Part shown: one piece after another, positions 5,548-24,221 of the stretch
How the letters are laid out: each line of letters starts with the position of its first letter
Numbering within the stretch: the stretch's first letter is position 1
Made by a program: the position numbers and the translations under genes
Notes under the pieces: generated by a model
Told to the model about the DNA's origin: nothing
Seen by the model: only the letters and a program-made list of their open reading frames with translations
The model's database searches: none
IMG/VR virus record: IMGVR_UViG_3300022602_000376
Span: 1 to 25,843 of that record
Strand: one strand, 5' to 3'
DNA: 25,843 bases
Source: a virus

Positions 5548-6543
5548 ATGGCAACTTTAGCAGAAATTCGCGCAAAACTTCAACAAGCATCTCAACAAAA
5601 CACCGGTAGCGCAGGCGGTGGAGACAACGCAATATTTCCACACTGGAACATTCAAGAAGGTCAAACAGCAACAGTAAGATTCTTACCAGACGCTGACCCA
5701 AACAACACATTTTTCTGGATTGAACGAGCAATGATCAAATTGCCTTTCGCCGGAGTTAAAGGTGAAGCAAATTCAAAACCAGTTACTGTACAAGTTCCTT
5801 GTATGGAAATGTGGGGCGAAACATGCCCAATCTTAACAGAAGTACGTCCATGGTTCAAAGACAAAAATCTTGAAGATATGGGTCGTAAATACTGGAAAAA
5901 GCGTTCATATTTGTATCAAGGTTTTGTAGTTGATAGCAAACTACAAGAAGACAAAACACCAGAAAATCCAATTCGTAGATTTATCATTGGTAGCCAAATC
6001 CACAACATTATCAAAGCGGCTTTGATGGATTCTGAAATTGAAGAAATTCCAACAGACGCAGTACGTGGCTTGGATTTCAAGATTGTTAAGACAAGTAAAG
6101 GTGGTTATGCTGACTACTCTACTTCAAACTGGGCTCGTCGTGAACGTGCGTTGAGTGAAGAAGAACAAGCGGCTGTAGCACAATACGGTACGTTTAACTT
6201 GAAGGATTTCTTGCCTAAGAAACCAGGCGATGTTGAACTCAAAGTGATGATGGAAATGTTTGAAGCGTCAGTCGACGGTGAAGCATTTGACATGGATCGT
6301 TGGGGTCAATATTTTAAACCAGCAGGTATGGGCGGTAGTGGTTCAGCTACAGGTTCTAAAGCCAAAGATCCAGAAGCAGAAGACGCAGGTGAAGCAGTAA
6401 GCACACCAGCACCAAAAGCAGTTGCTAAGCCAACTGTGAGTGAAGATGATGACACACCAAGTGCAAGTTCTACCGAAGGTAGCGATGCTAGCGGTCGTGC
6501 TCAAAACATCTTGGCAATGATTCGTCAACGTCAACAATCTTAA
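5548..6543 (+). CDS. 32: Single-stranded DNA-binding protein (gp32-like)
   Basis: Binds ssDNA cooperatively and recruits replication and recombination proteins. It is 331 residues, close to the T4 length. A short N-terminal self-association segment (about 1-20) is followed by the OB-fold core starting at IFPHWNIQEGQTATVRFLPD (about 29-48), with aromatic residues FFWIER and the WFKDKN...YWKKRSYLYQGFV block (about 102-127). After about residue 265 comes an acidic and Ser/Ala-rich tail like the T4 protein-interaction domain. Only two cysteines are visible in the zinc region (C85, C93; VPCMEMWGETCPI), against three Cys and one His in T4. It is followed 15 bases later by uvsX, with which it acts. 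Confidence 0.93.
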   Translation: MATLAEIRAKLQQASQQNTGSAGGGDNAIFPHWNIQEGQTATVRFLPDADPNNTFFWIERAMIKLPFAGVKGEANSKPVTVQVPCMEMWGETCPILTEVRPWFKDKNLEDMGRKYWKKRSYLYQGFVVDSKLQEDKTPENPIRRFIIGSQIHNIIKAALMDSEIEEIPTDAVRGLDFKIVKTSKGGYADYSTSNWARRERALSEEEQAAVAQYGTFNLKDFLPKKPGDVELKVMMEMFEASVDGEAFDMDRWGQYFKPAGMGGSGSATGSKAKDPEAEDAGEAVSTPAPKAVAKPTVSEDDDTPSASSTEGSDASGRAQNILAMIRQRQQS

Positions 6544-6558
6544 TTTGGGAGATAGACT

Positions 6559-7617
6559 ATGGGAAAAGCCTTCGATATTTCGAAGTTCCGTAAGTCTATC
6601 ACCAAGTCTATCGACGGACTTGGTATAGGCTTTAATGATCCAACTGATTGGATCAGCACAGGGAACTATGCTCTAAATTATCTTATTTCAGGTGACTTTA
6701 ACAAAGGTGTGCCGATGGGTAAGGTAACTGTATTTGCTGGTGAATCTGGCGCAGGTAAGTCTTATATTTGCTCCGGTAACATTATTAAGAACGCACAAGA
6801 ACAAGGCATTTATGTTGTCTTAATTGACTCAGAAAATGCGTTGGATCAAGCGTGGTTAGAAGCACTAGGTGTTGATACAAGTGAAGATAAACTTCTAAAA
6901 CTTAACATGGCAATGATTGATGATGTTGCTAAAACTATTAATGAGTTTATGAGCGAATACAAATCCATGGATGCTACAGATCGTCCAAAAGTGTTATTTG
7001 TAATTGACTCTTTGGGTATGTTGCTTACTCCAACGGATGTAAATCAATTTGAAGCAGGAGATCTTAAAGGTGATATGGGTCGTAAACCTAAAGCACTTAC
7101 GGCGCTGGTTCGTAACTGTGTTAATATGTTTGGTAATTACAACGTCGGCTTGGTATGTACTAATCACACATACGCTTCGCAAGATATGTTCGACCCTGAT
7201 GACAAAATTTCCGGAGGACAAGGATTCGTTTACGCATCTTCTATCGTGGTTGCCATGAAGAAGTTGAAATTAAAAGAAGACGAGGACGGAAATAAGGTCA
7301 GTGACGTATTAGGTATTCGTAGTGCCTGTAAGATTATGAAAACACGTTATGCTAAACCTTTCGAAACTGTACAGGTTAAGATTCCTTATTCAACTGGAAT
7401 GAGTCCAACCTCCGGACTTGTTGACATGTTCGAGAAAATGGGTGTATTATCTAAAGTAGGAAATAAATTAGCATACACTAGTAAGGAAACTGGTGAGATT
7501 GTAGCAGAGTTTCGTAAAAACTGGGACGAAGATAAATTAAAAATTATCATGGACGAGTGGGACGAAACAGCCGCGGCAACCTTAACAACAACAGAATCTG
7601 TAGAGGATGAAGAATAA
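6559..7617 (+). CDS. uvsX: UvsX, RecA-like recombinase
   Basis: Forms presynaptic filaments on ssDNA and drives strand exchange and recombination-dependent replication. It is 352 residues. Walker A is GESGAGKS (61-68); VVLIDSENALD (about 86-96) carries the catalytic-glutamate region; Walker B is VLFVIDS (145-151). TNHTYAS and the DNA-binding loop segment KISGGQGF follow. The C-terminus is acidic. An SD (GGGAG) stands about 8 bases before the ATG. Its stop overlaps the next gene's start (TAATG). Confidence 0.96.
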   Translation: MGKAFDISKFRKSITKSIDGLGIGFNDPTDWISTGNYALNYLISGDFNKGVPMGKVTVFAGESGAGKSYICSGNIIKNAQEQGIYVVLIDSENALDQAWLEALGVDTSEDKLLKLNMAMIDDVAKTINEFMSEYKSMDATDRPKVLFVIDSLGMLLTPTDVNQFEAGDLKGDMGRKPKALTALVRNCVNMFGNYNVGLVCTNHTYASQDMFDPDDKISGGQGFVYASSIVVAMKKLKLKEDEDGNKVSDVLGIRSACKIMKTRYAKPFETVQVKIPYSTGMSPTSGLVDMFEKMGVLSKVGNKLAYTSKETGEIVAEFRKNWDEDKLKIIMDEWDETAAATLTTTESVEDEE

Positions 7618-7871
7618 TGGAAGAAGCATTAATTATGGAAGTGTGGGATCTGTTCCGTGAATATATCCCTGAGAAAAACAAAGATATGGTGGCAAATCAG
7701 TACGTCGATTTTTTGTTAGGTAAGGATATCACGCCAGAAGTACTCGAAACATTCATGGGATATGACAGCCACCTCGATGAAGCAATCAAAACTGTCGTGG
7801 ATGAAAATTCCGATGGTGATGATGACGAGTATGACGAGGACAATTACGGCTACGAAGACGAGGACTACTAA
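7617..7871 (+). CDS. Small acidic protein between UvsX and UvsY
   Basis: 84 residues. The N-terminal two-thirds is helical (EVWDLFREYIPEKNKDMVANQYVDFL). The tail from about residue 62 is almost entirely Asp, Glu, Asn, Gly and Tyr. No catalytic motif is visible. It overlaps uvsX and uvsY by one base on each side (TAATG), so it is probably co-translated with the recombinase and its mediator. The acidic tail could mimic DNA or contact gp32/UvsX; this is inference only. Confidence 0.85.
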   Translation: MEEALIMEVWDLFREYIPEKNKDMVANQYVDFLLGKDITPEVLETFMGYDSHLDEAIKTVVDENSDGDDDEYDEDNYGYEDEDY

Positions 7872-8323
7872 TGTGGTACTCAAAGGTTAGCAAAGATATC
7901 GCTCACCTTCCAGCTTGTATTGACTATTATTACACACAGTTAGAAGAAGCCCGCAAGGAAGTCAAAGTCTATGGTAACATAGAAAAGGCTTCCGCGGCTT
8001 TACCTGGTATTGTTGAACAAAGGTTCAATCAACTTCAAGAAATTGAGGCAATATTAGAATATCTGAACATCGAGTCAAGAAGATTGCGAAGTAAGGTGTT
8101 CAAAAAATATCTAGAAAACTATCAACGTGCTCTTAGTTCACGAGATGTTGAAAAATACGTCGACGGTGAAGCAGACGTTGTTGACATGGATAAAATTATC
8201 AATGAATTTGCTCTGTTGAGAAATCATTGGTTAGGAATTATCAAGGCGATTGACATTAAACAATGGCAATTATCGAATATCATTAAATTACGTACCGCAG
8301 GTATGGAAGACATTACAATATAA
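7871..8323 (+). CDS. uvsY: UvsY-like recombination mediator
   Basis: 150 residues, close to T4 UvsY in length, and placed after uvsX and before uvsW. The sequence is mainly helical and charged, with a basic middle (about residues 70-95, RRLRSKVFKKYLENYQR) followed by RALSSRDVEKYVDGE. The latter matches my recollection of UvsY homologues in cyanophage-type genomes. The role is to help UvsX displace gp32 from ssDNA. Identification rests on context plus resemblance, with no catalytic motif to check. Confidence 0.8.
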   Translation: MWYSKVSKDIAHLPACIDYYYTQLEEARKEVKVYGNIEKASAALPGIVEQRFNQLQEIEAILEYLNIESRRLRSKVFKKYLENYQRALSSRDVEKYVDGEADVVDMDKIINEFALLRNHWLGIIKAIDIKQWQLSNIIKLRTAGMEDITI

Positions 8324-9516
8324 TGTTTGTTTCTATGTACACAAGAAAAGCTGACTACGTTGAAGATCTAATTTCTGGACTTGCGTGGAGTGGTGAAGGA
8401 ATTTTTATCGGTGATCGACAAATCATTGATAGCTTCGACACGCAAATTTCGCGTGGTTCTGCCTATACTGTTAAGCAAGGGGCATTGGCCATAAAATTAT
8501 GCCGAAAATACCAAAATTTCTTGGTCGGACTATTCGGTAGTGTTGTTGAGGATATACTCCTTCAAGAAAAATTTCAGATGCCACTCCGCACCTTGGTGTA
8601 CAGTGATAAGTCTATTTCAGTGGTGAGGGAAGAAACAAAGTACATTAAGGTAACATTTCCATACAATGACGATTTGGTGAAAAAAATCCGAGATTTTAAG
8701 AAAGAAAATCCCAATGATTGGTCCGAGTGGAACAGTGATGAAAAATTTTGGCAGTTCAGTTTAACTGAAGGCAACATTTTATGGATAGGCAATAACCTTA
8801 TTCCTGCCGGTTTTTCAACAGATCAGGATTTTATGGATTTTTATGAAAAAATTCAGGAAATTTTGGAAAATATTGAAAATCACGCACCCATGCTGATCTT
8901 TGAAAAAACAGGGGCGGCCTTCAAAAATGTTTATGAGTCAGTTCCCCAGCCTCCTCAGTTCGACATACTCAGTAGCCTGGTGTTGGCAAAACAGTATGGC
9001 ATTGATGTATGGGACGAAATTTGTGAAAATTACCTAAATTCCGAAAAAGTAGGGGTTGTCACCAGAAAATTCCTTACCAAGGAGTTTAATGATGAATTGA
9101 AAATTTACTCACGTGAACATAAACTCAAAGAGTTTGATCAGTTGTTGACAGCAGAGCACTCTGTTATGATTGTGATACCACCTGACCGTGAATTAGACCA
9201 CCTAAAAAAGTGGCACAAGCATATAAATTCATTAGGATACCAAAATTCTGACATAACAGTTATGTTCAGGACTGACAACGAAACCAATAGAGAATTCAAC
9301 GAGTATATCAAGGAACATAAACTTAATACTCCTATACACAAAGACATGAAATTTGTGTTTGTCAGTAGGCGTATTAAAAAGCCATTGGTTCAAAGTGGCA
9401 TAAATTTTGGTATTGCTATTAGTTGTGACCCTTTAGGCAGTCATATCAACACCAAAAAAATTATAAATGACAAATTCAACACAGTTGTCTATATTGACAA
9501 CGGGCAAGCAGAATGA
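8323..9516 (+). CDS. HARP-domain-like protein of unknown function, adjacent to UvsW
   Basis: 397 residues. After an N-terminal helical region (about 1-90), residues about 105-165 resemble the HARP domain of annealing helicases such as SMARCAL1: a beta strand YIKVTFPYNDDLVKKIRDF, then a tryptophan-rich segment ending in a KFWQFSL strand. The C-terminal half (about 280-397) reads like a degenerate RecA-like helicase domain (VMIVIPPDRELDHLKKW ... KFVFVSRRIKKP) with no Walker A. It sits between uvsY and uvsW and overlaps both (TAATG upstream, ATGA downstream). I infer a DNA-junction-binding accessory to UvsW. The HARP assignment comes from pattern recognition, not a search. Confidence 0.8.
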   Translation: MFVSMYTRKADYVEDLISGLAWSGEGIFIGDRQIIDSFDTQISRGSAYTVKQGALAIKLCRKYQNFLVGLFGSVVEDILLQEKFQMPLRTLVYSDKSISVVREETKYIKVTFPYNDDLVKKIRDFKKENPNDWSEWNSDEKFWQFSLTEGNILWIGNNLIPAGFSTDQDFMDFYEKIQEILENIENHAPMLIFEKTGAAFKNVYESVPQPPQFDILSSLVLAKQYGIDVWDEICENYLNSEKVGVVTRKFLTKEFNDELKIYSREHKLKEFDQLLTAEHSVMIVIPPDRELDHLKKWHKHINSLGYQNSDITVMFRTDNETNREFNEYIKEHKLNTPIHKDMKFVFVSRRIKKPLVQSGINFGIAISCDPLGSHINTKKIINDKFNTVVYIDNGQAE

Positions 9517-10970
9517 AAAAATGTAAAATTGTAATCAAGGACGAAGTTAATGTTAAGATTGAAAATTTAGATCTTGATACACGTAAATCATTGGTTAAAA
9601 AATTCAAATATTTTGACCAAAAAGCAAGGTATCTGCCAGCATACAAATTAGGTCGTTGGGATGGCTGTACCAGTTTTTTTGGTCTTGGCGGTACTACCTA
9701 CATGAGTATGTTACCAGAGGTTATTGAGGAGATTATTCGCCAAGGTTATGATCCAGAAATTGAAGATCTGCGTATTAGTCCGGTGCTAGAATTTACCAAA
9801 ATTTCTGAAGATTTTTGGGGTGATGCTACATGGCCAGAAGGACATCGATTTGCCGGAGAAAAGATTAGACTTCGCGATGACCAGGTTGAGGTTGTTAATA
9901 AGTTCCTCGAAAACCCACAATGTATTCAGGAAATTGCCACTGGATTTGGTAAGACAATTACCACCGCAACTTTGTCAAAAATTTGTGAAAAATACGGTCG
10001 AACAATAACCATTGTTCCGAACAAAAGTTTAGTTGAACAAACAGAAGAAGATTTTATTAACTGTCAATTAGACGTAGGTGTATACTATGGTGACAGAAAA
10101 GAGCTAGGAAAAACACATACTATTTGTACTTGGCAAAGTCTCAATATTTTAGACAAAAAATCCAAAGATACCACCGAAGATGAGATATTAACATTGGCAG
10201 TATTCCTAGATGGAGTTCAGTGTGTTATGGTCGATGAGGTACACATGGCCAAGGCTGAAGTGTTGAAAAAGTTACTTACACAGCACTTGTCAAATTGTGC
10301 GATACGTTGGGGACTGACTGGTACTGTACCTAAAGATGACCTCGAATTTATGAGCATCAAAACCGGTCTAGGAGAAGTTGTACACAGAGTTAAGGCACAC
10401 GAATTACAAGAAGCAGGTGTGTTATCTGGATGTCACGTTAACGTTATTCAAACTGCCGAATGGAAGGAATTTGGAAGTTATCCAGAAGAGTTAAAATACT
10501 TGGTTACTAACGAAGATAGGATGAATTATATCTCATCATTAATTAAAACAATCGCAACTGGTGGGAATACACTAGTATTGGTTGACAGAATTGAATCAGG
10601 ACGTATAATAGTAGATAACATACCTGATGCTGTCTTTGTTTCAGGCGAAGTTAAAACGAAGGACAGGAAGGAAGAATATGATGAGATTCGTACAAGTGAT
10701 AATAAGACTATTGTGGCGACTTATGGTGTGGCCGCTGTGGGCATTAATATTCCTCGGATCTTTAATCTGGTTCTTCTGGAACCCGGAAAGAGCTTTGTCA
10801 GAGTTATCCAATCTATTGGACGTGGTATTAGAAAAGCAGACGACAAAGACTTCGTCCAAATCTGGGATCTAACAGCAAGTAGCAAGTATGCGAAGAAACA
10901 TTTAACGGAACGTAAGAAATATTACAAAGAAGCAAAGTATCCGTTTACAATTGAAAAGGTGAAATATTAA
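9513..10970 (+). CDS. uvsW: UvsW, SF2 DNA/RNA helicase
   Basis: Unwinds R-loops, regresses forks and branch-migrates junctions in T4. It is 485 residues. The N-terminal DNA-binding domain (about 1-100) contains YKLGRWDG, typical of UvsW. Helicase motifs: Walker A ATGFGKT (142-148), DEVH box (241-244), LTGT (268-271), and motif VI QSIGRGIRK (433-441) with arginine fingers R437 and R440. The start overlaps the preceding stop (ATGA), and the stop overlaps the next start (TAATG). Confidence 0.95.
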   Translation: MKKCKIVIKDEVNVKIENLDLDTRKSLVKKFKYFDQKARYLPAYKLGRWDGCTSFFGLGGTTYMSMLPEVIEEIIRQGYDPEIEDLRISPVLEFTKISEDFWGDATWPEGHRFAGEKIRLRDDQVEVVNKFLENPQCIQEIATGFGKTITTATLSKICEKYGRTITIVPNKSLVEQTEEDFINCQLDVGVYYGDRKELGKTHTICTWQSLNILDKKSKDTTEDEILTLAVFLDGVQCVMVDEVHMAKAEVLKKLLTQHLSNCAIRWGLTGTVPKDDLEFMSIKTGLGEVVHRVKAHELQEAGVLSGCHVNVIQTAEWKEFGSYPEELKYLVTNEDRMNYISSLIKTIATGGNTLVLVDRIESGRIIVDNIPDAVFVSGEVKTKDRKEEYDEIRTSDNKTIVATYGVAAVGINIPRIFNLVLLEPGKSFVRVIQSIGRGIRKADDKDFVQIWDLTASSKYAKKHLTERKKYYKEAKYPFTIEKVKY

Positions 10971-11814: not shown

Positions 11815-12077
11815 TGGGATCACTTACACCAGGGGCATCGTACATTTATGAAAGAAATGGCGACGAGATTTATGCTAGAGAAGTTGGAAAGACTGAGCGC
11901 ATACTGATAGGATATCACTTGCCACAACGTAGAGACCCGCTTCAATACGATATGATTGAAACTCAACTTTGGCAGGATATTGTTGAAGCATCGAAAGATA
12001 ATCCTGCTCTAAAAGATTTACTAGAACAAGCAAAGACATTATACTATCTAACTAAAGACTATGGCAGCGAAACTTGA
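11814..12077 (+). CDS. Small conserved hypothetical protein
   Basis: 87 residues. The beta-rich start SYIYERNGDEIYAREVGKTERILIGYHL is followed by a helical part (ETQLWQDIVEASKDNPALKDLLEQAKTLYYL). I do not recognise the function. The start overlaps the cupin stop (TAATG), and the end overlaps gp62 by 17 bases. Its helical tail and position just before gp62 are the only clues. Confidence 0.8.
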   Translation: MGSLTPGASYIYERNGDEIYAREVGKTERILIGYHLPQRRDPLQYDMIETQLWQDIVEASKDNPALKDLLEQAKTLYYLTKDYGSET

Positions 12078-12522
12078 TATTAAAAGAGAATTAAACGCAG
12101 TAGATCATAAAATTTATGATTTTTACGAAAAACTTACGGACGAAGAAAAGAAAGCATTTAGTCCGTATATTCTCATGAGATATGTTTCAAACTATCAAGG
12201 TGACACTGAAATACAAGAGCATTTTTTAGAAGCCACAAACGAGTTTGTAAACAAAAATCATTGGGTGTTGAGTAAAAATCACAAGGCATTTTTATGGAAA
12301 TTGTTTGCGGCTTGTGGTGTCGGCATTAATGCGTATCATCCATATCTTGCCGCAGGTAAAAAAGAAAAAGCAAACAAAATTGAAAAATTGTTGTGTGAAA
12401 TTTATCCTGCTATGAAATTAGAAGACATTAAAGTTATGGCCGGATTAATGGATAAGAAAGATATCGAAGAACTGTTTGATAAAATGGGGTTCGATAAGAA
12501 ACAAAGGAAAGATTATGAATAA
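12061..12522 (+). CDS. 62: Sliding-clamp loader small subunit (gp62-like)
   Basis: 153 residues, somewhat shorter than T4 gp62. The sequence FYEKLTDEEKKAFSPYILMRYVSN, the helical middle, HPYL and the closing MKLEDIKVMAGLMDKKDIEEL match my recollection of gp62 in cyanophage-type T4-like genomes. gp62 works with gp44 to load the gp45 clamp. Neither gp44 nor gp45 is in this window, so they must lie elsewhere; in T4 the three are contiguous. No ATPase motif is present, as expected for gp62. Confidence 0.78.
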   Translation: MAAKLDIKRELNAVDHKIYDFYEKLTDEEKKAFSPYILMRYVSNYQGDTEIQEHFLEATNEFVNKNHWVLSKNHKAFLWKLFAACGVGINAYHPYLAAGKKEKANKIEKLLCEIYPAMKLEDIKVMAGLMDKKDIEELFDKMGFDKKQRKDYE

Positions 12523-12682
12523 TTTTTGGACAGTAGGAATAGATGCTGACGGAAGAGTATTCTTAGAAAACGAAAGTATACAAGATGTTAAATTGTATCT
12601 TGAAGGCAAAGAATTTAACTCAGTAGAAGAAAAGGCATTTTTTGCCAGCAACTTGGCAAGGTCGATTAACGGAACACTTTGA
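12515..12682 (+). CDS. Small hypothetical protein (55 aa)
   Basis: Starts at ATG 12515 with a strong SD (AAAGGAAAG ending about 3 bases before it), overlapping the gp62 stop by 8 bases. The frame is open further upstream, but that part lies within gp62. The product begins MNNFWTVGIDADGRVFLENES and is mixed alpha/beta with an acidic bias. No family is recognised. Its TGA overlaps the next ATG by one base. Confidence 0.75.
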   Translation: MNNFWTVGIDADGRVFLENESIQDVKLYLEGKEFNSVEEKAFFASNLARSINGTL

Positions 12683-13377
12683 TGCTGAAGTTAGAAGAGC
12701 AACCATTTAATTGTTTTCATTGTGGTAAGAGTTTTATGAAAGAAAAAACTCTGTATGCTCACATGTGCGAACCTAAACGTCGAGCAATGCAGAAAGACGA
12801 AAAAAGAGTTCAAGCAGGTTTCATGGCTTTCAATAGATTTTTTAAATTAACACAAGGTGCCAAGAAAGATAAATCTTATGCGGATTTTTGTAAGAGTCCG
12901 TACTACAATGCCTTTGTAAAATTTGGAAGTTTTGTCAATAATGTAATGCCGCTTTATCCAGATAAGTTTGTTGACTTTGTTATCAAAAGCGGAATTAAAT
13001 TAGACCATTGGTGTCGTGATGAATTGTACGACAACTATCTATTTGAGATGCTTAAATTAGAACCAGCTGAGAGTGCTATTCAAAGAAGTATCAAACACAT
13101 GATGGAATGGGCAGATACTAACAACGCAGAGTTTCAACATTACTTCTTGTATGTAAATCTCAATCGAGCAGTTAATGATATTCGCAATGGTTACATTAGT
13201 CCATGGCTTGTTCTTAATTCTAGATCCGGTCGAGATATGGTTGCTAAGTTTAACGATGAACAAATGGAAATTATTGCTCCAGCATTTGATGTTCCCTATT
13301 GGTTGAAGAAATTTAAGGAACAACCGGACGACCAAGCTCTTGCCAAAGAGGTCTGTAAGGAGACAGGAATTGAGTGA
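12682..13377 (+). CDS. Zinc-finger-like conserved phage protein
   Basis: 231 residues. The N-terminus has a C2H2/C2HC-like finger, CFHCGKSFMKEKTLYAHMC (about residues 11-29), followed by a basic stretch KRRAMQKDEKRVQ. The body is helical, with FCKSPYYNAFVKFGSF and LYPDKFVDFVIKSGIKLDHWCRDELYDNY. I recognise it as a protein conserved in aquatic T4-like genomes but know no proven function. The finger and its place among clamp-loader and polymerase-like genes point to nucleic-acid binding, perhaps replication or late transcription. The start at ATG 12682 overlaps the upstream stop (TGATG). Confidence 0.85.
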   Translation: MLKLEEQPFNCFHCGKSFMKEKTLYAHMCEPKRRAMQKDEKRVQAGFMAFNRFFKLTQGAKKDKSYADFCKSPYYNAFVKFGSFVNNVMPLYPDKFVDFVIKSGIKLDHWCRDELYDNYLFEMLKLEPAESAIQRSIKHMMEWADTNNAEFQHYFLYVNLNRAVNDIRNGYISPWLVLNSRSGRDMVAKFNDEQMEIIAPAFDVPYWLKKFKEQPDDQALAKEVCKETGIE

Positions 13378-13762
13378 CAAAGAATTACAAGATTTTTTTA
13401 TGCGGCATGGTATTAGAGTATTAGACACTAATAAAAAAGCCTATAGACGCAGAATATTGCCTCCTAAGTATTTTACTAGTGCGACAGATATGAATGTTGT
13501 AGAAGCATTGAATATTGAAACATTAACTGAGCCAGTGTATACTATAGAGATTACTCTTGATGAACTTGAAGGCATAGCAAAATTTGAAGATCAAATTTTC
13601 AATAAAATGGCCAATAGAGGACATTACGATTTGTTTACATACATTATGGAACAAAAAGAAAAAGAGAAAGAACTTAGAGATAGATATACCGCTGTGAGAA
13701 AAGCATATGAGCATTACAGCACTATGTTAAAACTTGCGGCTGGCGGAGATTTAGATTTATAA
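13370..13762 (+). CDS. Conserved hypothetical protein, probable TTG start
   Basis: About 130 residues. The preferred start is TTG at 13370 because AAGGAG (13357-13362) stands 7 bases upstream; a TTG at 13340 lies inside the previous gene, and the first ATG (13400) would lose the conserved-looking N-terminus. Basic patches (KKAYRRRILPPKYF) come first, then an acidic beta segment EPVYTIEITLDELEGIAKFE and a charged helix MEQKEKEKELRDRYTAVRKAYE. This helical, coiled-coil-prone C-terminus suggests a protein-protein adaptor. It sits where T4-like genomes may carry replication or late-transcription adaptors, but I cannot equate it with gp33 or gp59. Confidence 0.78.
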   Translation: MSDKELQDFFMRHGIRVLDTNKKAYRRRILPPKYFTSATDMNVVEALNIETLTEPVYTIEITLDELEGIAKFEDQIFNKMANRGHYDLFTYIMEQKEKEKELRDRYTAVRKAYEHYSTMLKLAAGGDLDL

Positions 13763-14340
13763 TGCCAGATATTGATATTGACTTTGCTGATAGAACCAAA
13801 GCACTTGATGTAATCAAGCATGTACCAGCATCCCTTGACGGAATTAAAAAACACAATACTGGAGTATATGTACAACCGATTCCTGTTAATCCACTAACAG
13901 GTATATCTAGTATAAATTATAAAGAAGCTGAAGATCGCGGATATATGAAATTAGATTTTCTCAATGTAAGCATATATTCCGGAATCAAAAGCGAACAACA
14001 TTTACAAAAATTAATGGAGACAGAACCACTATGGGATCTATTGGAACAAGACGAGTTCACGAATCTCCTCTTTCACGTGAACGGACACGGGAACGTATTG
14101 AGGCGAATGAAACCGAAAAGAGTAGAAGAGCTCGCGGCTTGCCTGGCTATGATACGCCCAGCAAAAAAACACCTGCTAGGATTGCCGTGGAAAGAAGTAT
14201 TCGAAGAAGTATGGACGAAGCCGACGACTGACGATTATTATTTTAAGAAGGCACACGCTATAGCCTATGCTATGGCTATTGTGGTACAAATGAATTTGAT
14301 TTGTGAAGGTATTAACGCAGAGGTCTCTTCGGAGATCTAA
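13762..14340 (+). CDS. Miniature DnaE (DNA polymerase III alpha)-like protein
   Basis: 192 residues that read as a condensed C-family polymerase core. PDIDIDFADR (2-11) matches the DnaE motif PDFDVDF with its two catalytic aspartates (D5, D7). HNTGVYVQPIPV (31-42) matches the DnaE segment after it. GYMKLDFLNV (60-69) matches the segment holding the third catalytic aspartate (D65). VEELAACLAMIRPAKK matches the VEEL.A..AL.RPGP block, and YYFKKAHAIAYAMAIV matches F.KSHAAAYA. The PHP domain, large fingers, beta-binding and OB domains are absent. Bacterial DnaE has over 1100 residues, so this is a palm-like remnant or a mini-enzyme. It closes the recombination/replication operon. Confidence 0.85.
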   Translation: MPDIDIDFADRTKALDVIKHVPASLDGIKKHNTGVYVQPIPVNPLTGISSINYKEAEDRGYMKLDFLNVSIYSGIKSEQHLQKLMETEPLWDLLEQDEFTNLLFHVNGHGNVLRRMKPKRVEELAACLAMIRPAKKHLLGLPWKEVFEEVWTKPTTDDYYFKKAHAIAYAMAIVVQMNLICEGINAEVSSEI

Positions 14341-14695
14341 TTAGCTGTATACTTTTACGTTTAACACGCTTTTCCGCAATTTCTCCCAAATTTACTGTTG
14401 GGCCAAAAATTACTTCTACATCTTTGCTATTAAATGTCTTAATAGCCCCTCGATAGGTAATCATTTCTTTTTTGAGGAATATGTTAATAGGAATTTTACG
14501 GTTGCTTTCCCACCACCAAATTTCGCCCATTTCTAAAAAAAGTTTTCGATCTTCGTCTGTTTTAATATCAGCAAAATCGTACAGACTAACCACGTTATGA
14601 TCTAGGTTAATTATAATGCCGACGTATTCATTATCACCTATCTTTATACAGGTAATAAATGGGAAATTGTTCTGAAATTCGTCCTTCGTGGTCAT
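14312..14695 (-). CDS. Conserved hypothetical phage protein
   Basis: 127 residues. It starts MTTKDEFQNNFPFITCIKIG, then YVGIIINLDHNVVSLYDF and a distinctive block WWWESNRKIPINIFL (about 60-74), then a basic tail (KRVKRKSIQLIRSPKRP). The central block looks strongly conserved in aquatic T4-like genomes, but no function is known to me. The fold looks beta-barrel-like at the N-terminus. It is convergent with the mini-DnaE gene (29-base overlap) and divergent from the 14712 gene, with only 16 bases between the two ATGs. No SD is visible. Confidence 0.8.
   Translation of the reverse strand: MTTKDEFQNNFPFITCIKIGDNEYVGIIINLDHNVVSLYDFADIKTDEDRKLFLEMGEIWWWESNRKIPINIFLKKEMITYRGAIKTFNSKDVEVIFGPTVNLGEIAEKRVKRKSIQLIRSPKRPLR
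14321..14338 (+). terminator. CUUCGG tetraloop hairpin at the 3' end of the + operon
   Basis: AGGTCTC-TTCG-GAGATCT: a seven-base-pair stem (one G.U) closed by the C(UUCG)G tetraloop. It lies over the last codons and stop of the mini-DnaE gene. CUUCGG hairpins are a known feature of T4 mRNAs. No good U-tract follows, so it may stabilise or punctuate the 3' end rather than act as a classical terminator. It also lies in the 29-base overlap with the convergent gene. Confidence 0.55.
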
Positions 14696-14711: not shown

Positions 14712-15566
14712 ATGCTAAGTCTACCAGTCTATTTATATCCAAATTCACTCGACGTTATACTGGATTTGGATGTATTCAATCAAGGGATATATAATATCAT
14801 GTACCAACGTGACCTCACAATACAGAAAGGTATTAAAAACAACATTCAGTTGCAGTTTAAGAACAGCGACCAGAAACCTGTACCTATCAGCTCGAGCACT
14901 TTTGTGTTCACAATGTTCGATCGCACAAATCAAAAAGCGATGATTCAAAAGCCCGTTACAGTACTTGATGACGGCGTTACTACTAGCACACGTGGCCTAG
15001 CATTATTATCACTTTTAGAAACAGATACATGGCAAATAGACTGTGCCGATTATCAATTTAGCATTAGCATGTTTGATTCGTCAGATAGAACTTACACTCC
15101 AACTTACGCAAACACGTATTACGGAATGGCTGGCACACTACATTTAGAGCATGATTTAATGCCTGCTTTACAACCTAGTATTTCTGTAACTGCTTTCCAA
15201 AAGTATCTAAACAGAGATCCGGGTGCGCAGAATTATAATTTCTTTACTGGCCCGATTGCCGCAAATCCTGTGTTCCACGGAAATGGTGAGTACCATACAA
15301 TGGCAGTATATATGACCAATTATACTGGGTGGGTATATCCACAAGGAACCATGGACAACACACCTCCTAGCCCGGGCGCAATGACAGATTATGCTAATCT
15401 TGACGCACGTCATTATACAGCATTTACCGGAATTGATTACTTCAATTTCCAAGGCGTATGGAGTTATGTTCAACTAGAATATATTCCAGATAGCGGACCA
15501 TACCCAGGTTTAAACGACCAAACTCAATACACCGGAACAGTTGACAAAGTACTCTATAGAGGCTAA
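14712..15566 (+). CDS. Probable virion protein with BppU-like N-terminal domain
   Basis: 284 residues. The segment around residues 30-150 (YQRDLTIQKGIKNNIQLQF, then FVFTMFDRTNQKAMIQKPV, TSTRGLALLSLLETDTW, YQFSISMFDSSDRTYTPTY) follows the pattern of BppU/Ig-like beta-sandwich domains found in baseplate and neck-attached phage proteins. The second half is Tyr, Gly and Pro rich (NYNFFTGPIAANPVF, FTGIDYFNFQGVWSYVQLEY), as in receptor-facing structural proteins. No membrane segment or catalytic motif is seen. The late promoter box directly upstream supports virion expression. The exact position in the particle cannot be stated. Confidence 0.8.
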   Translation: MLSLPVYLYPNSLDVILDLDVFNQGIYNIMYQRDLTIQKGIKNNIQLQFKNSDQKPVPISSSTFVFTMFDRTNQKAMIQKPVTVLDDGVTTSTRGLALLSLLETDTWQIDCADYQFSISMFDSSDRTYTPTYANTYYGMAGTLHLEHDLMPALQPSISVTAFQKYLNRDPGAQNYNFFTGPIAANPVFHGNGEYHTMAVYMTNYTGWVYPQGTMDNTPPSPGAMTDYANLDARHYTAFTGIDYFNFQGVWSYVQLEYIPDSGPYPGLNDQTQYTGTVDKVLYRG

Positions 15567-15575
15567 AATAGTAGT

Positions 15576-16562
15576 ATGAGCCTTATAGACGCAGAACTGC
15601 GAGCCTTCTTACCTCCAAAGCAAAAGCACTCTCCAAACGGGTGGATTTCGTTTAATGCGGTGTGTTGTCAGCATAATGGAGAAAATCCCGATACACGTAA
15701 ACGGGGCGGCGTTCTTATGAATCCAGCAGGTGGATTTCAATACCATTGTTTCAATTGTGGATTCAAAGCAGGATGGAGTAAAGGTAAACTTTTATCTAAG
15801 AATACACGTAAACTTTTCAGCTGGCTTAACATTCCAGAAAGCAAAATCGCAGAACTTGCGATGGTTGCTCTGCGTGAACAAGAAGATATTCCTGTTGTAA
15901 AGAAAGTAATCAATTACGAATTAGAAGAGCGTAAACTTCCAGACGACTGCTTACCTTTTACTGAAGTAACTGACACTAGCGAAGATTTTATAAAGGTTGT
16001 AGAATATATTTTAGATAGAGGCATGAAGCTCGATTGGTACAACTGGATGTGGAGTTCTGCTCCAGGCTGGCGAGATCGTGTAATTGTACCTTTCTATTAT
16101 GAAGGAAAGATAGTAGGATACACAGGCAGAAAAATTAAAGATGGACGACCAAAATATCTAACTGATGGTCAAGGTACCTATGTCTTTAATATCGATAGGC
16201 AAACTCATGACAGAAATTTTGTATTAGTTGTCGAAGGACAATTTGATGCGATTGCTGTAGACGGAGTTGCTATCATGACTAACGAGCCCAACGAAGCTCA
16301 AGTTACACGTATCAATCAACTTCAAAGAGAAGTGATTGTTGTGCCTGACAGAGATAAACCCGGTGCTAAGTTAATCAAGGCCGCATTAGACAATAATTGG
16401 AATGTGAGTTTACCTGAGTGGGGTGATGACGTTAAGGATTGCGCAGAAGCAGTTCGTAAGTTCGGACGGATCTACACCTTACTCACAATCGCTAGGTATA
16501 AAGAAACGAATCGACTAAAAATAGAACTACTAAAGAAAAAACTGGAAAGATTAGATGTCTGA
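15576..16562 (+). CDS. 61: DNA primase (gp61-like, DnaG type)
   Basis: Synthesises RNA primers at the fork with gp41. It is 328 residues. The N-terminal zinc ribbon has C30/C31 and H33 in VCCQHNG, and C58 and C61 in HCFNCG. The TOPRIM domain shows E220 in VLVVEGQFDA and the D258/D260 pair in VVPDRDKPG. These are the family's metal-binding residues. It overlaps gp41 by 8 bases, so primase precedes helicase, the reverse of T4 order (41 then 61). The start is ATG 15576 without a strong SD. Confidence 0.95.
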   Translation: MSLIDAELRAFLPPKQKHSPNGWISFNAVCCQHNGENPDTRKRGGVLMNPAGGFQYHCFNCGFKAGWSKGKLLSKNTRKLFSWLNIPESKIAELAMVALREQEDIPVVKKVINYELEERKLPDDCLPFTEVTDTSEDFIKVVEYILDRGMKLDWYNWMWSSAPGWRDRVIVPFYYEGKIVGYTGRKIKDGRPKYLTDGQGTYVFNIDRQTHDRNFVLVVEGQFDAIAVDGVAIMTNEPNEAQVTRINQLQREVIVVPDRDKPGAKLIKAALDNNWNVSLPEWGDDVKDCAEAVRKFGRIYTLLTIARYKETNRLKIELLKKKLERLDV

Positions 16563-18012
16563 AAAAACAAATTACAATTACGAAGTACAAAAATTATATC
16601 TCGAGATGTTCTTGAGCGACGGTGAAACTTATATGAGATGTGCTAACATCTTTGATCCAGAAAGCTTTGATCGCAAGTTACAAGAGTCGGCAGAATTTAT
16701 TAAGACATACGTTGATGAATATAAAGTAATGCCCGAAGCAAAGATTCTCAACGCACAATGCGGAGTTTCGTTTGATCCAATACCATTGCCAAAAGAAAAC
16801 TATGATTGGCTAATGAATGAGTTTGAAAACTTTAGTAGACACAAGGCATTAGAAAGAGCAATTATTAAGAGCAGTGATTTGATTGAAGACGGTGATTATG
16901 GTCCAGTTGAGAACATGATTAAGCAGGCAATTCAAATTAGTCTTAACAAGGACATGGGCACTGATTATTTTGAAGACCCACGTGCTAGATTAGAAGGACT
17001 TAAGAATAGCAATGGACAAATTAGTACAGGATGGCCAAGCATTGATAAGAAATTGTATGGCGGTTTTAACCGAGGAGAACTTAATATATTTTGTGCTGGT
17101 TCTGGCGGTGGTAAGAGTTTGTTTTTGGCTAACCTCGGCGTTAACTGGGCACTGCAAGGATTAAATGTTTTATATCTAACATTTGAGTTGGCAGAAAATT
17201 TAGTGTCTATGCGTATTGACAGTATGATGACCGGAATCGGTACTCGTGACATTTTTAAGAACTTAGATGATGTTGAACTTAAGGTTAAGATGTTGAAAAA
17301 GAAATCAGGCAACATCCAAGTTAAGTACATGCCATCGGGTAAAAACTGTAACGACATTCGTGCGTATTTGAAAGAATATAGAATTAAGAAAGGTGTAGAT
17401 CCAGATGTTATTTTAATTGACTATTTGGATTTGATGATGCCGTTAAGTGTTAAAGTTAGCCCAAGCGATTTGTTTGTTAAGGACAAATATGTATCAGAAG
17501 AAATTCGTAACTTGGCTATGGAAACAAAATGTATTACTGTAACTGCTTCACAGTTGAATCGTTCAGCTGTTGAAGAAATTGAGTTTGATCATAGTCATAT
17601 TTCGGGCGGTTTGTCAAAGATTATGACGGCAGATAATGTGATCGGTATCTTTACAAGTCGTGCTATGAAAGAGCGGGGACGTTATCAAATTCAGTTTATG
17701 AAGACACGTTCTAGTAGCGGTGTAGGACAAAAAGTAGATTTAGAATTTGATGTAGATACTCTAAGAATTAACGATCTAGGTGAGGATTCTGAACCTAGTT
17801 TTAATCAGGGCGGTGGACAAAAACCAGAAGTTACCCAAATGATTAACTCATTTAAGAAAACAAGTACAGTTACTACAACTGTCGATGAAGATGGAGTTAT
17901 TAGTAGACCTGCGGATCCTGCAGAAGGAATTCCAATTGCCAAGGTTAAAGGTGTTGCGGGATCTGCTAGAATTCGAGATTTGTTAGCAGGAATGAATAGC
18001 GAAAAAGACTAA
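16555..18012 (+). CDS. 41: Replicative helicase (gp41-like, DnaB family)
   Basis: Hexameric 5'-3' helicase that moves on the lagging strand and activates the primase. It is 485 residues. The N-terminal helical domain (about 1-130) is followed by a RecA-like motor: Walker A AGSGGGKS (181-188), the TFELAE motif (209-214), Walker B PDVILIDYLDLM (283-294), then TVTASQLNRS (sensor) and SGGLSKIMTADNVIGI with the basic finger region. The C-terminal 60 residues are low-complexity and probably flexible. It starts inside the primase stop region (ATGTCTGA). A convergent gene starts its 3' end 25 bases downstream; no clear terminator is seen between. Confidence 0.95.
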   Translation: MSEKTNYNYEVQKLYLEMFLSDGETYMRCANIFDPESFDRKLQESAEFIKTYVDEYKVMPEAKILNAQCGVSFDPIPLPKENYDWLMNEFENFSRHKALERAIIKSSDLIEDGDYGPVENMIKQAIQISLNKDMGTDYFEDPRARLEGLKNSNGQISTGWPSIDKKLYGGFNRGELNIFCAGSGGGKSLFLANLGVNWALQGLNVLYLTFELAENLVSMRIDSMMTGIGTRDIFKNLDDVELKVKMLKKKSGNIQVKYMPSGKNCNDIRAYLKEYRIKKGVDPDVILIDYLDLMMPLSVKVSPSDLFVKDKYVSEEIRNLAMETKCITVTASQLNRSAVEEIEFDHSHISGGLSKIMTADNVIGIFTSRAMKERGRYQIQFMKTRSSSGVGQKVDLEFDVDTLRINDLGEDSEPSFNQGGGQKPEVTQMINSFKKTSTVTTTVDEDGVISRPADPAEGIPIAKVKGVAGSARIRDLLAGMNSEKD

Positions 18013-18036: not shown

Positions 18037-18600
18037 TTAGAACCAGGTCGAAATGACCGAATTTGCTACAATATCGATTGATTTTCGCCACTGATCTTCC
18101 CCGTTTTGATTAAAAACCGACTCGATATTGGCCGGTGCGTCGAGCCATCTATGTTCTAGTTTCCATGGGGGTAAGCCCTTATATTCGCCATCTAGTTGAT
18201 GTGCTCCCCATGCGCAAAATCCTGCTACAATTCGATATAATTCTGGGCCTTGCCCGCCTGCTATTGCGGCTAATACAGATATATCGCTTGTAATTCCCAT
18301 ATCTGGAGTAACTGCTACGGTACTGGCGCTTTTCCAATCTAGTGTATGAATAACATGAACTCTATGGGGTTCTACAGGGCCGCCCTTATAAATGGGGTTA
18401 GTATCGTGCGGATACTCAATACCCGACGATGACATAACATCGCTAACAGTAATGTGATCGTGCGGTTTGTTGACCATTAATCCCCAACTTCCTTCGTTTG
18501 TATGTTTCGCAATAACAATAACTGAGTTAGAAAAAAATGAGTCAATACATTTTGGCTGGGAGCATAATATGTGTCCCGTTAAATTCAATGAACCTTGCAT
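18037..18600 (-). CDS. YqgE/AlgH-family protein (UPF0301)
   Basis: 187 residues, the usual length. It follows the bacterial YqgE/AlgH pattern throughout: LTGHILCSQP at the start, SVIVIAKHTNEGSWGLMVNKP (about 25-45), YKGGPVEPHRVHVIHT (about 71-86), then SDISVLAAIAGGQGPE, RIVAGFCAWGAHQLDGE and a final DAPAN...F....EDQWR block. The family's biochemical role is unsettled; AlgH was first linked to alginate regulation in Pseudomonas. In a phage it may be a host-derived gene acting on host regulation. It stands alone on the - strand, convergent to gp41 and divergent from the nucleotidyltransferase. No SD is seen; an ATTAAATA box precedes the ATG by five bases. Confidence 0.92.
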   Translation of the reverse strand: MQGSLNLTGHILCSQPKCIDSFFSNSVIVIAKHTNEGSWGLMVNKPHDHITVSDVMSSSGIEYPHDTNPIYKGGPVEPHRVHVIHTLDWKSASTVAVTPDMGITSDISVLAAIAGGQGPELYRIVAGFCAWGAHQLDGEYKGLPPWKLEHRWLDAPANIESVFNQNGEDQWRKSIDIVANSVISTWF

Positions 18601-20306: not shown

Positions 20307-20976
20307 AAGGAGTTGTCGGTGGTGGCGGAGCCCCAGCAACCGCACCTGAACTAGATTTAGCAACATTTCCAGCGGAGCCCCGCATCATATTTTTACCTAG
20401 ATCTGTTGCTACATCTTTGCCCACATCTCCAAACCAGTGTCCTACATTTTGAACTAGCGGTTGTTCACTAGCCCAGTCTAAAATTGAAGCTAGAGCAAAA
20501 CTAGCTACTCCTGCGATTGCTCCGTGTTGAGCCGCGACATGCGGAGTCATACCCATAAGCTGTCCATCTACCATTCCTAAGAATCCAACCACGGCAGCAC
20601 CGGCAGCCGCCCCAGTGGCCATAGTTGCAGCAACCCCGAGAGCCCCTAGTATTGCGGCATGTAGTATAGGATGTTTTTCGCCCCATTCTTTATATTTTTC
20701 TATATAATGATTAATTTTAGCAATTTGATCAGGAGTGAATTCTTTTTGTTCTATTTTACGTTCGAGTTCAAGAACTTTTTCATCAAATTTTTGAACAGCA
20801 CCTTTAGGTAATTTATTAAGATTGGCGGCTGTTGCCTTTGCGGACTGCTGTATCTGCTGTTTGGCCTGAGGATTAACACCTTCTACTAGTACATCTGGAT
20901 TATCTATGTTTTCAAAAATACGAGTAACTTGTTCCGGTGTTAAAACTGTACTATAGGCAAATTCTTTATATCTCAT
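20293..20976 (-). CDS. Ala/Gly-rich protein with hydrophobic core, downstream of the fibre gene
   Basis: 227 residues. The N-terminus ([24 protein letters not shown]) is followed by a long charged helix (about 45-100). A hydrophobic Ala/Gly-rich region (about 103-170; [26 protein letters not shown], later [16 protein letters not shown]) could form two or three membrane segments. The Pro/Thr-rich tail reads [10 protein letters not shown]. The start overlaps the fibre stop (ATGA), so it is co-translated with the fibre. It might be a membrane-active or lysis protein, a fibre accessory, or an injected virion protein; nothing in the sequence decides between these. Confidence 0.78.
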
Positions 20977-23900
20977 GATAGTTTATCCTCAAGTGCAGCA
21001 ATACGTGCTTCTTGTGCTTCTATCTTAGCATTTAGATCTTTAATAGCATTGATCAATGGAACTGTTAATTTAGCATAGTCTAAACTTAGTGTTCCATCTG
21101 TGTTTACACCAACAACATGAGGAATGTATTGCTGTACTTGTTGAGCAATTAAACCAATCTCTTCTTGACTACCACGAATTGAAGTATCAATCCAGTTGTA
21201 TGTAACTGGTTGTAATTCTAATATTGATAACAATCCAGAATCTGTATTAGCAATATTTGTCTTAAGTGTTTCGTCAGATGCTGAGTTAGAAAGTGTACCA
21301 GCTGGTCCTGAATAAACAGCTCTATTACCTGTACCGGCTAATGTGAATACTGTAATGTTACCAAGAACACCAATACCACCTTGTACAGTTAACGCACCAG
21401 AAGTAGCAGTAGCCGCAGAACTTGCTGTACTTGTAACCTGCATTTCGTTAGTTACTTGTAGAATACCAAATGTAGATGTAGAGGAAGAGCCACCGACTGC
21501 TGTTATACCACCGGCTACATATAATGCTCCACCGATACCAACACCGCCAACAACTTGTAAGGCACCTGATTGTGTACTAAAACTTGCTGTAGTACTTCCA
21601 ATAACAAATGTTCCTGTATATCCTGTAGGATCTAAACTAATCGCACCTGCTCTAGTACTACCGCTATTAGCTACAATTAAACCGCTGCCTGGTAATACGA
21701 TAACAGAACCAGTTGTAACAGTAGAAGCAATCATAAATGGACCAGTAGCACCAGTAGCACCACTTGGACCTTGTACTGTTGAATCAGCACCTGTTGATCC
21801 TGTAATACCAGTAGCACCAGCAGGACCAGTTGCTCCTTGAACGCCAGTTGCTCCAGTTGCTCCAGCACCTGTGGCGCCCGGTAAACCAACGCCAGTTGCG
21901 CCATTTAAACCTGCGTTACCTGTAGGACCAGCTGGGCCTGTAGCTCCCGTAGGACCCGTAGCACCAGTTGCTCCTGCGTAACCTGTAAGACCTGTGGCCC
22001 CAGTTAAACCTGTAGCGCCAGTGCCTCCAATACCTGTAGCACCAGTAGATCCGCCTGGACCTATAGGGCCTGTTGATCCAGTAGCACCTAATGGTCCTGT
22101 CGATCCAGTAGCACCCGCACCTGTTGCTCCTTGACTACCTGTTGCACCAGTTGCCCCAACTGGGCCAGTAGATCCAGTTGCGCCGGTTGAACCTGCTCCT
22201 GTAGCACCAGCAGGACCAGTTGCGCCAGTTGCTCCATTAATACCGCTAGAACCTGTAGGACCAGTTGCTCCTGTTGCGCCAGCACCTGTAGCACCAGCAG
22301 GACCAGTGGCTCCCGTAGCACCTGTTGTTCCAATACCTGTAGCACCAGCACCTGTAGCACCAGCTGGTCCAATTGGACCTGTGGCTCCTTGAGCACCTGT
22401 AGCTCCTTGTACACCTGTAGCACCAGCACCTGTAGCACCGCGTAAGCCTGTTGCGCCAGTAGAACCTACGTTACCTGTAAATCCTGTTGGTCCAGTAGCA
22501 CCTTGTACACCAGTAGCACCACTTGGTCCAGTAGCACCATCTGCGCCTGTGGCACCTGTGCCTCCAATGGCCCCCGTAGCACCTGCACCAGTAGCACCCT
22601 GTGGTCCAGTTGCTCCTTGAATACCAGTTGCTCCAGTTGCTCCAGTAGCACCTTGTCCTGTAGCTCCCGCAGGGCCTGTAGAACCTTGACTACCAGTTGC
22701 GCCAGTAGCGCCTGGAGGGCCGCCTGGAGTACCAGGAGTTCCTGTGGCACCAGTTGGGCCTGTAGCACCAGTAGTTCCCGCAGGGCCTGTGGCGCCAGTA
22801 GCACCTGTTGTACCCAATGTTCCGTTTACACCAGTAGCACCAATTGGGCCAGTTGAACCCGTAGCACCAATATTACCAGCAGATCCCTGACTACCAGTTG
22901 CTCCTTGTGGTCCTACGGGACCGTTTGGACCGGTAGCACCTTGTACACCAGTAGCACCTGTTGCTCCGACACCTGTTGCTCCTATAGGTCCTTGTGGTCC
23001 AGGAATAGCAGGACCAGTTGCTCCAGTAGCACCAACTGCCACGTCAAACGCAGGAATACTGATTTCACCCGTAGATGTATTAAATGTAATACCATTACCA
23101 ACAATAACACCGCCCGGTGTACTGTTAGTAGCAATACCTAAATAGGCTGTAGATTGCTGTAAGCCGTCTTGGAACGTTAATGGGCTGTCAACAAAGATCT
23201 GGCCAGTTTGGCTGTACATGTGTAGGTTAGTTCCGCTACTGATAAAGCCCGCAGTATCCACACCTAATAAGGCGCGACCTGTACCTGCGTTGTAAACATA
23301 TACGTCACCGCTGCCTAGACTTTCAAATACGATTGTTTCATTTGGCTGACCGGACATGACATTTCCGTTGGCCATAAAGTCGCCCATGTTATTGCTGGAA
23401 ACTGATAGGATAGTAGTTGTATTAACACTAACAACACCTGTACCAGTATTAACTTCTAGACCAAAGCCAATGGCCATTAACCCTGGTAGCGGATTTAGAG
23501 AAGAGTTCCATTCTCCCCCGCCTGCTAGTGGTACGTGCTGTAGGTCACCAAAGTTGCTGGTACCGCCGCCACCGCCGCCGCCGGAACCTGTGGCATTTAA
23601 TTCTTGTATTTCGTATGTGCCATCACCAAAACTAACAACTTCAAAACCAATAGTACCCGTAGTACTAAAGGTCATCTTGTTGGTGCCCGTAGTATTTGGT
23701 AATCGTGACCAGTTGAGAATATACTGCTGATCTACCCATTCAACTGTGTTTTCTGTTGAAGCGATATCAAAGTAAGCACGAATTGAAGTAAAACGATTGT
23801 TAGACTCCCAATCTAGCGTATCTGTAAATCCTACCAGTTTGGCTAAAACTGTACCAGTACCTTGTGGATAAAATGCTGACGGTGCCACACGGTAAACACG

Positions 23901-24221
23901 ACCCTGCGTCCAATCTAGACTTACTGTATAAGTTGCTGTATTGTAGCTGGATGTGCTAAGTCCGGTAACGTAAACATAACGATCGCTGACCTGATTGAGT
24001 TGTATGTCATTTAATTCGGCACCACCTAGATCAGTAGTTGTGGTACCAAATTTGATCTGTGTTTGTAGCAGGCTAGTTAATTCCGCTGTAGCTGTAGTTA
24101 GGGCGGCTACAATCTGTACGTAATTATCGCGGAAACCTTGGCTGGAATTGTCTTGCCCCGCCACAGGGAATGTTGTAATGATACTGCCCGGATTAATTTG
24201 ACTGGTTGTAGTAAATGACAC
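20973..24221 (-). CDS. Collagen-like tail fibre with C-terminal S74 chaperone domain
   Basis: 1082 residues, GTG start with SD GAGGAAAG about 9 bases before it. The N-terminal module carries [20 protein letters not shown] (about 18-37), a motif typical of virion-attached structural proteins in aquatic T4-like phages. A beta-rich region (about 80-395, with a Gly7 stretch at 214-220) precedes a collagen-like G-X-Y domain (397-828, mostly GAT, GPA, GVQ) and a beta-helix-like stretch (829-980). The C-terminal intramolecular chaperone follows (peptidase S74-like: SDETLK at 982-987, then [13 protein letters not shown] and a coiled coil). In the family, Ser and Lys of SDxxLK catalyse autocleavage just before the serine. 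The role is trimeric receptor-binding or whisker fibre. Confidence 0.93.
21738..23033 (-). repeat. Collagen-like repeat tract inside the fibre gene
   Basis: About 144 near-perfect Gly-X-Y units dominated by GAT, so the DNA is a degenerate 9-base repeat (CCAGTAGCA-type on the + strand). About a dozen places have a two-residue unit (GA, GV, GQ or GI) instead of three, usually as GAT-GA-GAT. Such tracts recombine and change length easily and may be mis-assembled. Confidence 0.9.

Follow-up and report, generated by a model that had tools for sequence, protein, structure and literature searches.

The closest described system is the split minimal Pol III alpha of group 2.2 (T4-like) jumbo phages, in which an N-terminal NTP-binding part and a C-terminal metal-binding part are encoded by distantly located genes, and which its authors proposed as a model of ancestral Pol III (Iyer et al. 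2021, PMC7824862). The same study gives a PHP-containing Pol III alpha as the defining polymerase of subgroup 3.2 (PMC7824862). A literature search for more recent studies of this enzyme, laboratory tests included, found only Iyer et al., most subscription journals lying outside its coverage. Single pieces had been recorded in individual genomes; a Pol III alpha subunit was noted earlier in Atu_ph07 (PMC6102473), and the available text of the report on Pectobacterium phage CBB lists the 172-aa CBB_328 as a 'truncated' Pol III alpha, noting this one piece without pairing it to a second (PMC5259590). In its length of 172 aa and its similarity to Pol III alpha, CBB_328 resembles the N-terminal part of the split enzyme, and CBB carries both parts.

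Bacterial DnaE/PolC shares with the split enzyme the palm fold, the equivalents of D401, D403, D555 and K553, the finger block and FxKxHxxxY in the same order, together with the GRGS loop, which here lies in the partner protein. In contrast to the bacterial enzymes, the phage version is split into two proteins at a point corresponding to E. coli ~393/399, has shortened fingers, and is without the PHP, thumb, clamp-binding, OB and tau-binding regions. Single-chain phage Pol III alpha enzymes (Bacillus Eoghan gp40, Pseudomonas JG024 gp56, Streptomyces Navo gp77) are matched by the profiles of both parts, N before C, but unlike the split pair they place these in one chain of about 1030-1290 aa. 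The coordinates of PHROG 13169 and 12219 hinted at a split at the same place in other phage DnaE proteins, but this was not borne out in the three examples inspected, JG024, vipetofem and Ldl1, which are all single-chain.

The window, which is the whole 25.8-kb stretch of DNA analysed here (25,843 nucleotides), contains an intact ORF of 192 aa on the plus strand, with its ATG at 13762 and its stop codon ending at 14340. The protein belongs to the already described split minimal Pol III, of which it is the C-terminal half (hereafter the C half), and nothing essential distinguishes it from the system of Iyer et al., the window being a previously unannotated member on a fragmentary environmental contig. 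That system occurs together with a family B polymerase and with replication genes of the T4 type (PMC7824862), and the same is seen in relatives of the window. The first-pass annotation had found a second C-family-like protein in such a phage unexplained, a puzzle that the published description of the split enzyme (PMC7824862) removes. The features of the locus are collected in Table 1.

Table 1. Features of the window around the C-terminal half of the split polymerase
Feature	Coordinates	Strand	Remarks
Further listed feature	5548..6543	+	
UvsX-like recombinase	6559..7617	+	
UvsY-like recombination mediator	7871..8323	+	
UvsW-like helicase	9513..10970	+	PHROG 'DNA helicase'; position as in relatives
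153-aa protein	12061..12522	+	PHROG 11758; conserved neighbour
232-aa protein	12679..13377	+	PHROG 11058; weak N-terminal C2H2-like zinc finger; upstream in 155/160 relatives
Small upstream ORF	13340..13762	+	stop TAA and the start ATG of the polymerase gene overlap as TAATG; absent from widely shared clusters, not a conserved family
C-terminal half of split minimal Pol III alpha	13762..14340	+	PHROG 11778; second palm half and minimal fingers
D3-I4-D5-I6-D7 codons	13768..13782	+	D3 and D5 equivalent to E. coli D401 and D403
K63-L64-D65 codons	13948..13956	+	D65 equivalent to E. coli D555, K63 to K553
F161-K-K-A-H165-A-I-A-Y169 codons	14242..14268	+	Pol III alpha fingers motif; E. coli FNKSHSAAY
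Convergent 127-aa gene	14312..14695	-	PHROG 11637; overlaps 3' end of the C half; same place in 149/160 relatives
Virion structural protein	14712..15566	+	PHROG 14467
DnaG-type primase (gp61-like)	15576..16562	+	
DnaB-like replicative helicase (gp41-like)	16555..18012	+	
YqgE/AlgH-like protein	18037..18600	-	
1082-aa protein with collagen-like repeat	20973..24221	-	

Profile searches matched residues 3-182 of the C half to PHROG 11778 ('DNA polymerase', E=4.8e-67), and the ORF was also matched by PHROG 405, a family of full-length Pol III alpha proteins (E=1.5e-10), and by NCBIfam DnaE models (NF004226, E=8e-6). In alignments to Pol III alpha its blocks run in the order PDIDIDF, YMKLDFL, finger block and FKKAHAIAYA. 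The resemblance to DnaE that had been read by eye in the first-pass annotation was thus borne out, with ordered alignments and profile matches well above chance, as was the absence from the protein of PHP, clamp-binding and OB regions, with only minimal fingers present. Two further reductions had not been noted there: the protein lacks the N-terminal palm half, and its thumb is absent or strongly reduced.

That missing half was found elsewhere in related genomes. Searches with the Pfam Pol III alpha domain and with PHROG 405 recovered a second gene in each of the 10 complete phages searched, and likewise in the two environmental contigs of more than 270 kb searched with them. This gene (PHROG 11127) encodes a protein of roughly 160-185 aa, about 170 on the whole (hereafter the N half), and carries G-x-GRGSS, the nucleotide-binding loop absent from the C half. 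The N half ends ...DSLKYNLDWREFLR, at the point where DnaE reads ...DPLEFDLLFERFLN, and the PDIDIDF start of the C half falls a few residues past this end on DnaE. Mapped on PHROG 405, the N half covers positions 357-436 and the C half positions 442-455, 578-681 and 773-809, the gaps in the latter corresponding to the thumb and ~100 residues of the fingers. At the position of R390 of E. coli, a basic palm residue conserved across DnaE, the N half instead has a conserved glutamate, which counts against the pair being a polymerase. Residues 1-66 of the N half (loci L128-L207) have no counterpart in the DnaE/PolC alignments; it is possible that they form a docking part for the clamp loader, the clamp or another replisome protein.

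Sequence-profile searches against solved structures yielded only weak hits, at E 0.02 for the C half (where estrogen receptors appeared as noise) and at E 0.003 for the N half, and a comparison of folds was therefore needed. AlphaFold2 models were built with alignments of environmental relatives, and Foldseek candidates were re-aligned by VIA-align. The model of the C half reached a pLDDT of 91.2 and a pTM of 0.71, and that of the N half, taken from contig G001, a pLDDT of 93.4 and a pTM of 0.73. The best structural match of the C half was 3e0d of T. aquaticus (residues 461..841, Z 10.1 over 185 residues), and the N half matched 5lew with Z 11.9 over 102 residues, as against Z 3.6 and Z 2.6 for the best unrelated structures of the C and N halves, respectively. 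Whole-model Foldseek superpositions were loose (TM about 0.4), since a partial domain is compared in them with a target bearing large insertions. A chance resemblance of the ORF to C-family polymerases could be ruled out by the PHROG E values together with these Z scores.

The re-aligned models placed the split at the same point in four reference enzymes. The aligned part of the N half (residues ~67-168) and the C half covered residues 276..393 and 399..784 of E. coli 2hnh, 291..455 and 461..886 of T. aquaticus 2hpi, 303..413 and 419..859 of M. smegmatis 5lew, and 822..964 and 970..1304 of PolC 9qrn, so that in each case the two halves abut with a ~5-residue gap and no overlap. Only Pol III alpha chains matched the C half model well, the outcome foreseen for a comparison with DnaE/PolC palms, and the models support a Pol-beta-like palm fold of Pol III alpha for the C half. 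In contrast, the idea of a self-contained mini-DnaE, of a terminal transferase or of a decoy found no support, as the triphosphate-binding half is a separate gene and the two models tile one DnaE chain.

Residue alignments were made against the Pol III alpha of E. coli, M. smegmatis and M. tuberculosis. MPDIDIDF of the C half aligns on E. coli 399-MPDFDVDF-406, from which it follows that D3, D5 and D7 correspond to D401, D403 and D405; D65 in YMKLDFL aligns with D555 and K63 with K553, the E. coli residue numbers being those in general use, combined with the alignment numbering. The first-pass annotation was right that the three catalytic aspartates are kept, but it is D3, D5 and D65, and not D5, D7 and D65, that are equivalent to D401, D403 and D555. 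D3, D5, D7, K63, D65, H165 and Y169 are invariant in 31 sequences that include the most distant phages, D-x-D-x-D and K-x-D are kept in 160 of 160 environmental relatives of the C half, as the proposed conservation of the aspartates in homologues would have it, and GxGRGSS is kept in 79 of 79 N halves. Among close relatives of the C half the median dN/dS was ~0.08 (48 pairs, which are non-independent), and the comparison of the window with relative L001 gave dN 0.10 and dS 1.01. These ratios point to strong purifying selection on the C half. Together with the invariant motifs they rule out a decayed copy or pseudogene and, with the palm fold of the model, they agree with the earlier suggestion that selection maintains the metal-binding site.

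The C half has a fixed place in its genomes, between the PHROG 11058 gene (155 of 160) and the PHROG 11637 gene (149 of 160), which are followed by the structural protein, primase and helicase genes. UvsX, UvsY, UvsW and SSB share this gene cluster. The PHROG 11058 protein is a candidate helicase loader or replication factor. The PHROG 11637 gene overlaps the polymerase half by ~29 bases and is opposite in orientation to the surrounding genes. At the loci of the N half, a 77-aa gene lies just upstream in 75 of 80, and downstream come a GroES-like gene and, in 61 of 80, the gp44 clamp loader. The product of the 77-aa gene is a possible third subunit.

Taken together, we consider it probable that the C half is the metal-binding half of a minimal C-family polymerase split inside the palm, which pairs with the N half as a predicted polymerase. 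The two proteins would pair non-covalently, the ~170-aa N half holding the triphosphate through its GxGRGSS loop and the C half holding two metals, and the paired halves would restore a palm of the Pol-beta-like type, in which two catalytic metals are bound, together with short fingers. That such a reassembled dimer would be catalytic is strongly suggested. It may extend a primer as a template-directed DNA polymerase, with short, low-processivity synthesis beside the family B replicase in gap filling, at recombination intermediates or at lagging-strand ends. Short-patch synthesis would be the likeliest job because the thumb, PHP, OB and clamp-binding parts are missing. The UvsX, UvsY, UvsW and SSB neighbours fit recombination-dependent replication or repair, although the neighbourhood alone cannot separate this from gap filling or a role at lagging-strand ends.

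Against a polymerase counts the extent of the reduction. While a C-family DNA polymerase would be expected to hold a PHP domain and a complete palm, fingers and thumb in one chain, neither half contains a PHP domain, the palm is split, the fingers are short by ~100 residues, the thumb is down to ~40 residues, and the parts of Pol III that grip DNA are missing. Whether the predicted ~360-aa pair is a working enzyme without thumb, PHP and clamp-binding parts, retained for a task beyond the family B replicase, is in our judgement evenly balanced. If working, it would to our knowledge be the smallest C-family polymerase. The same reduction, set beside catalytic residues that are nevertheless invariant, would also suit assembled halves that act as a Pol-beta-like nucleotidyltransferase without a template, either an end transferase or an enzyme with an RNA or small-molecule substrate. 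The family B polymerase that these phages already own, and the N-terminal stretch of ~66 residues in the N half, which matches nothing in Pol III alignments, are in line with this. However, minimal fingers are kept, including FKKAHAIAYA with its invariant histidine, and both genes lie among replication genes, and we hold a non-templated transferase to be unlikely.

The pairing of the two halves into a polymerase is in keeping with their distribution. The C half was found in 63 phage records at E<=1e-5, with 61 of the 63 spanning at least 80% of the query. They comprise RaK2-like, 121Q-like, CBB/GAP32-like and PA5oct/Paride-like phages, and further Atu_ph07, Phosso, SCTP-2, XaC1, RAS14 and Slicko01 (141 kb); more than 500 environmental stretches encode relatives. 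Among the matches listed, all 60 phage records with an N half also held a C half, that of RAS14 being taken for this count from a separate search with the C half, and the sole listed C-half record off the N-half list was a 109-kb partial Klebsiella phage record. Both halves were likewise present in 7 of 7 IMG/VR contigs of at least 200 kb, shorter contigs with one half being fragments. In phage 121Q the two halves are gp16 and gp56. The distance from N to C half was ~11 kb in Slicko01, 14 kb in RAS14, 34 kb in RaK2, 44 kb in Paride and 224 kb in Phosso, and none of 287 loci, with flanks of up to 10 kb per side, held both halves, whether fused or side by side. No N half was found by profile search within the window, whose own copy is not visible because the window is a 25.8-kb fragment.

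These distances of tens of kb, and the confident fold predicted for the C half by itself, could be taken to mean that it acts alone, either as an accessory protein that binds metal or DNA or as a decoy of host DnaE. Yet alone it is without the part of the palm that binds the nucleotide, its partner is always present in sufficiently complete genomes, and a decoy does not need invariant D-x-D-x-D and K-x-D, so that we regard a solitary role as quite improbable. A catalytically dead pair serving as a structural part of the replisome, for instance a platform linking clamp loader and helicase, has in its favour the position of both genes in replication clusters and the general precedent of polymerase-derived replisome subunits that are inactive, but is highly improbable given metal-binding motifs that are invariant in 160 sequences and triphosphate-binding motifs that are invariant in 79.

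A few weaker matches to the C half were set aside. A 408-aa frame on the 80-kb contig G016 was taken as chance, its ORFs being without C-family motifs. Erwinia phage Ea35-70 and its relatives gave a weak tblastn match to residues 28-98 (E 0.3) in another gene context. A cellular origin was rejected, as the matching genome contigs are MAG contigs and those inspected encode the phage-type protein, except L305, which holds an ordinary bacterial DnaE.

A family B polymerase was found in 12 of the 12 relatives searched (10 phages and two contigs of more than 200 kb), and none was found on the window, a 25.8-kb fragment; gp100 of RaK2 has been reported as PolB (PMC3622015). Slicko01, an Alishewanella phage of 141 kb (L090, L127), encodes the N half and the C half as well as a family B polymerase. 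Its genome is well below the jumbo limit, so that the split enzyme also occurs outside the jumbo phages.

The present analysis tests the described system independently at the level of structure and locates the split exactly in four reference enzymes; it also adds the co-occurrence count, the conserved neighbourhood of each half and the extension of the family to a 141-kb phage. T4-like jumbo phages keep two unrelated DNA polymerases, one of which, the predicted split enzyme, is cut through its active-site domain into distant genes. If active, the split pair would define the minimum needed by a C-family polymerase, and would raise the question of why it is kept beside a good replicase. Laboratory hosts make this question directly testable: E. 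coli for 121Q and PBECO4, Klebsiella for RaK2 and P. aeruginosa PAO1 for Paride. For annotators, the 'truncated DnaE' genes of these genomes are to be read as half-enzymes and not as decayed copies.

Two further genes of the window lie beyond the helicase, both on the minus strand. The first encodes a protein that is YqgE/AlgH-like by eye, without a PHROG match, and is unusual in a phage. The 1082-aa protein combines a long collagen-like G-A-T-G repeat (Pfam Collagen, E=1e-39) with an intramolecular chaperone domain of the S74 type at its C-terminus (Pfam Peptidase_S74, E=2e-12), and is probably a tail or head fibre.
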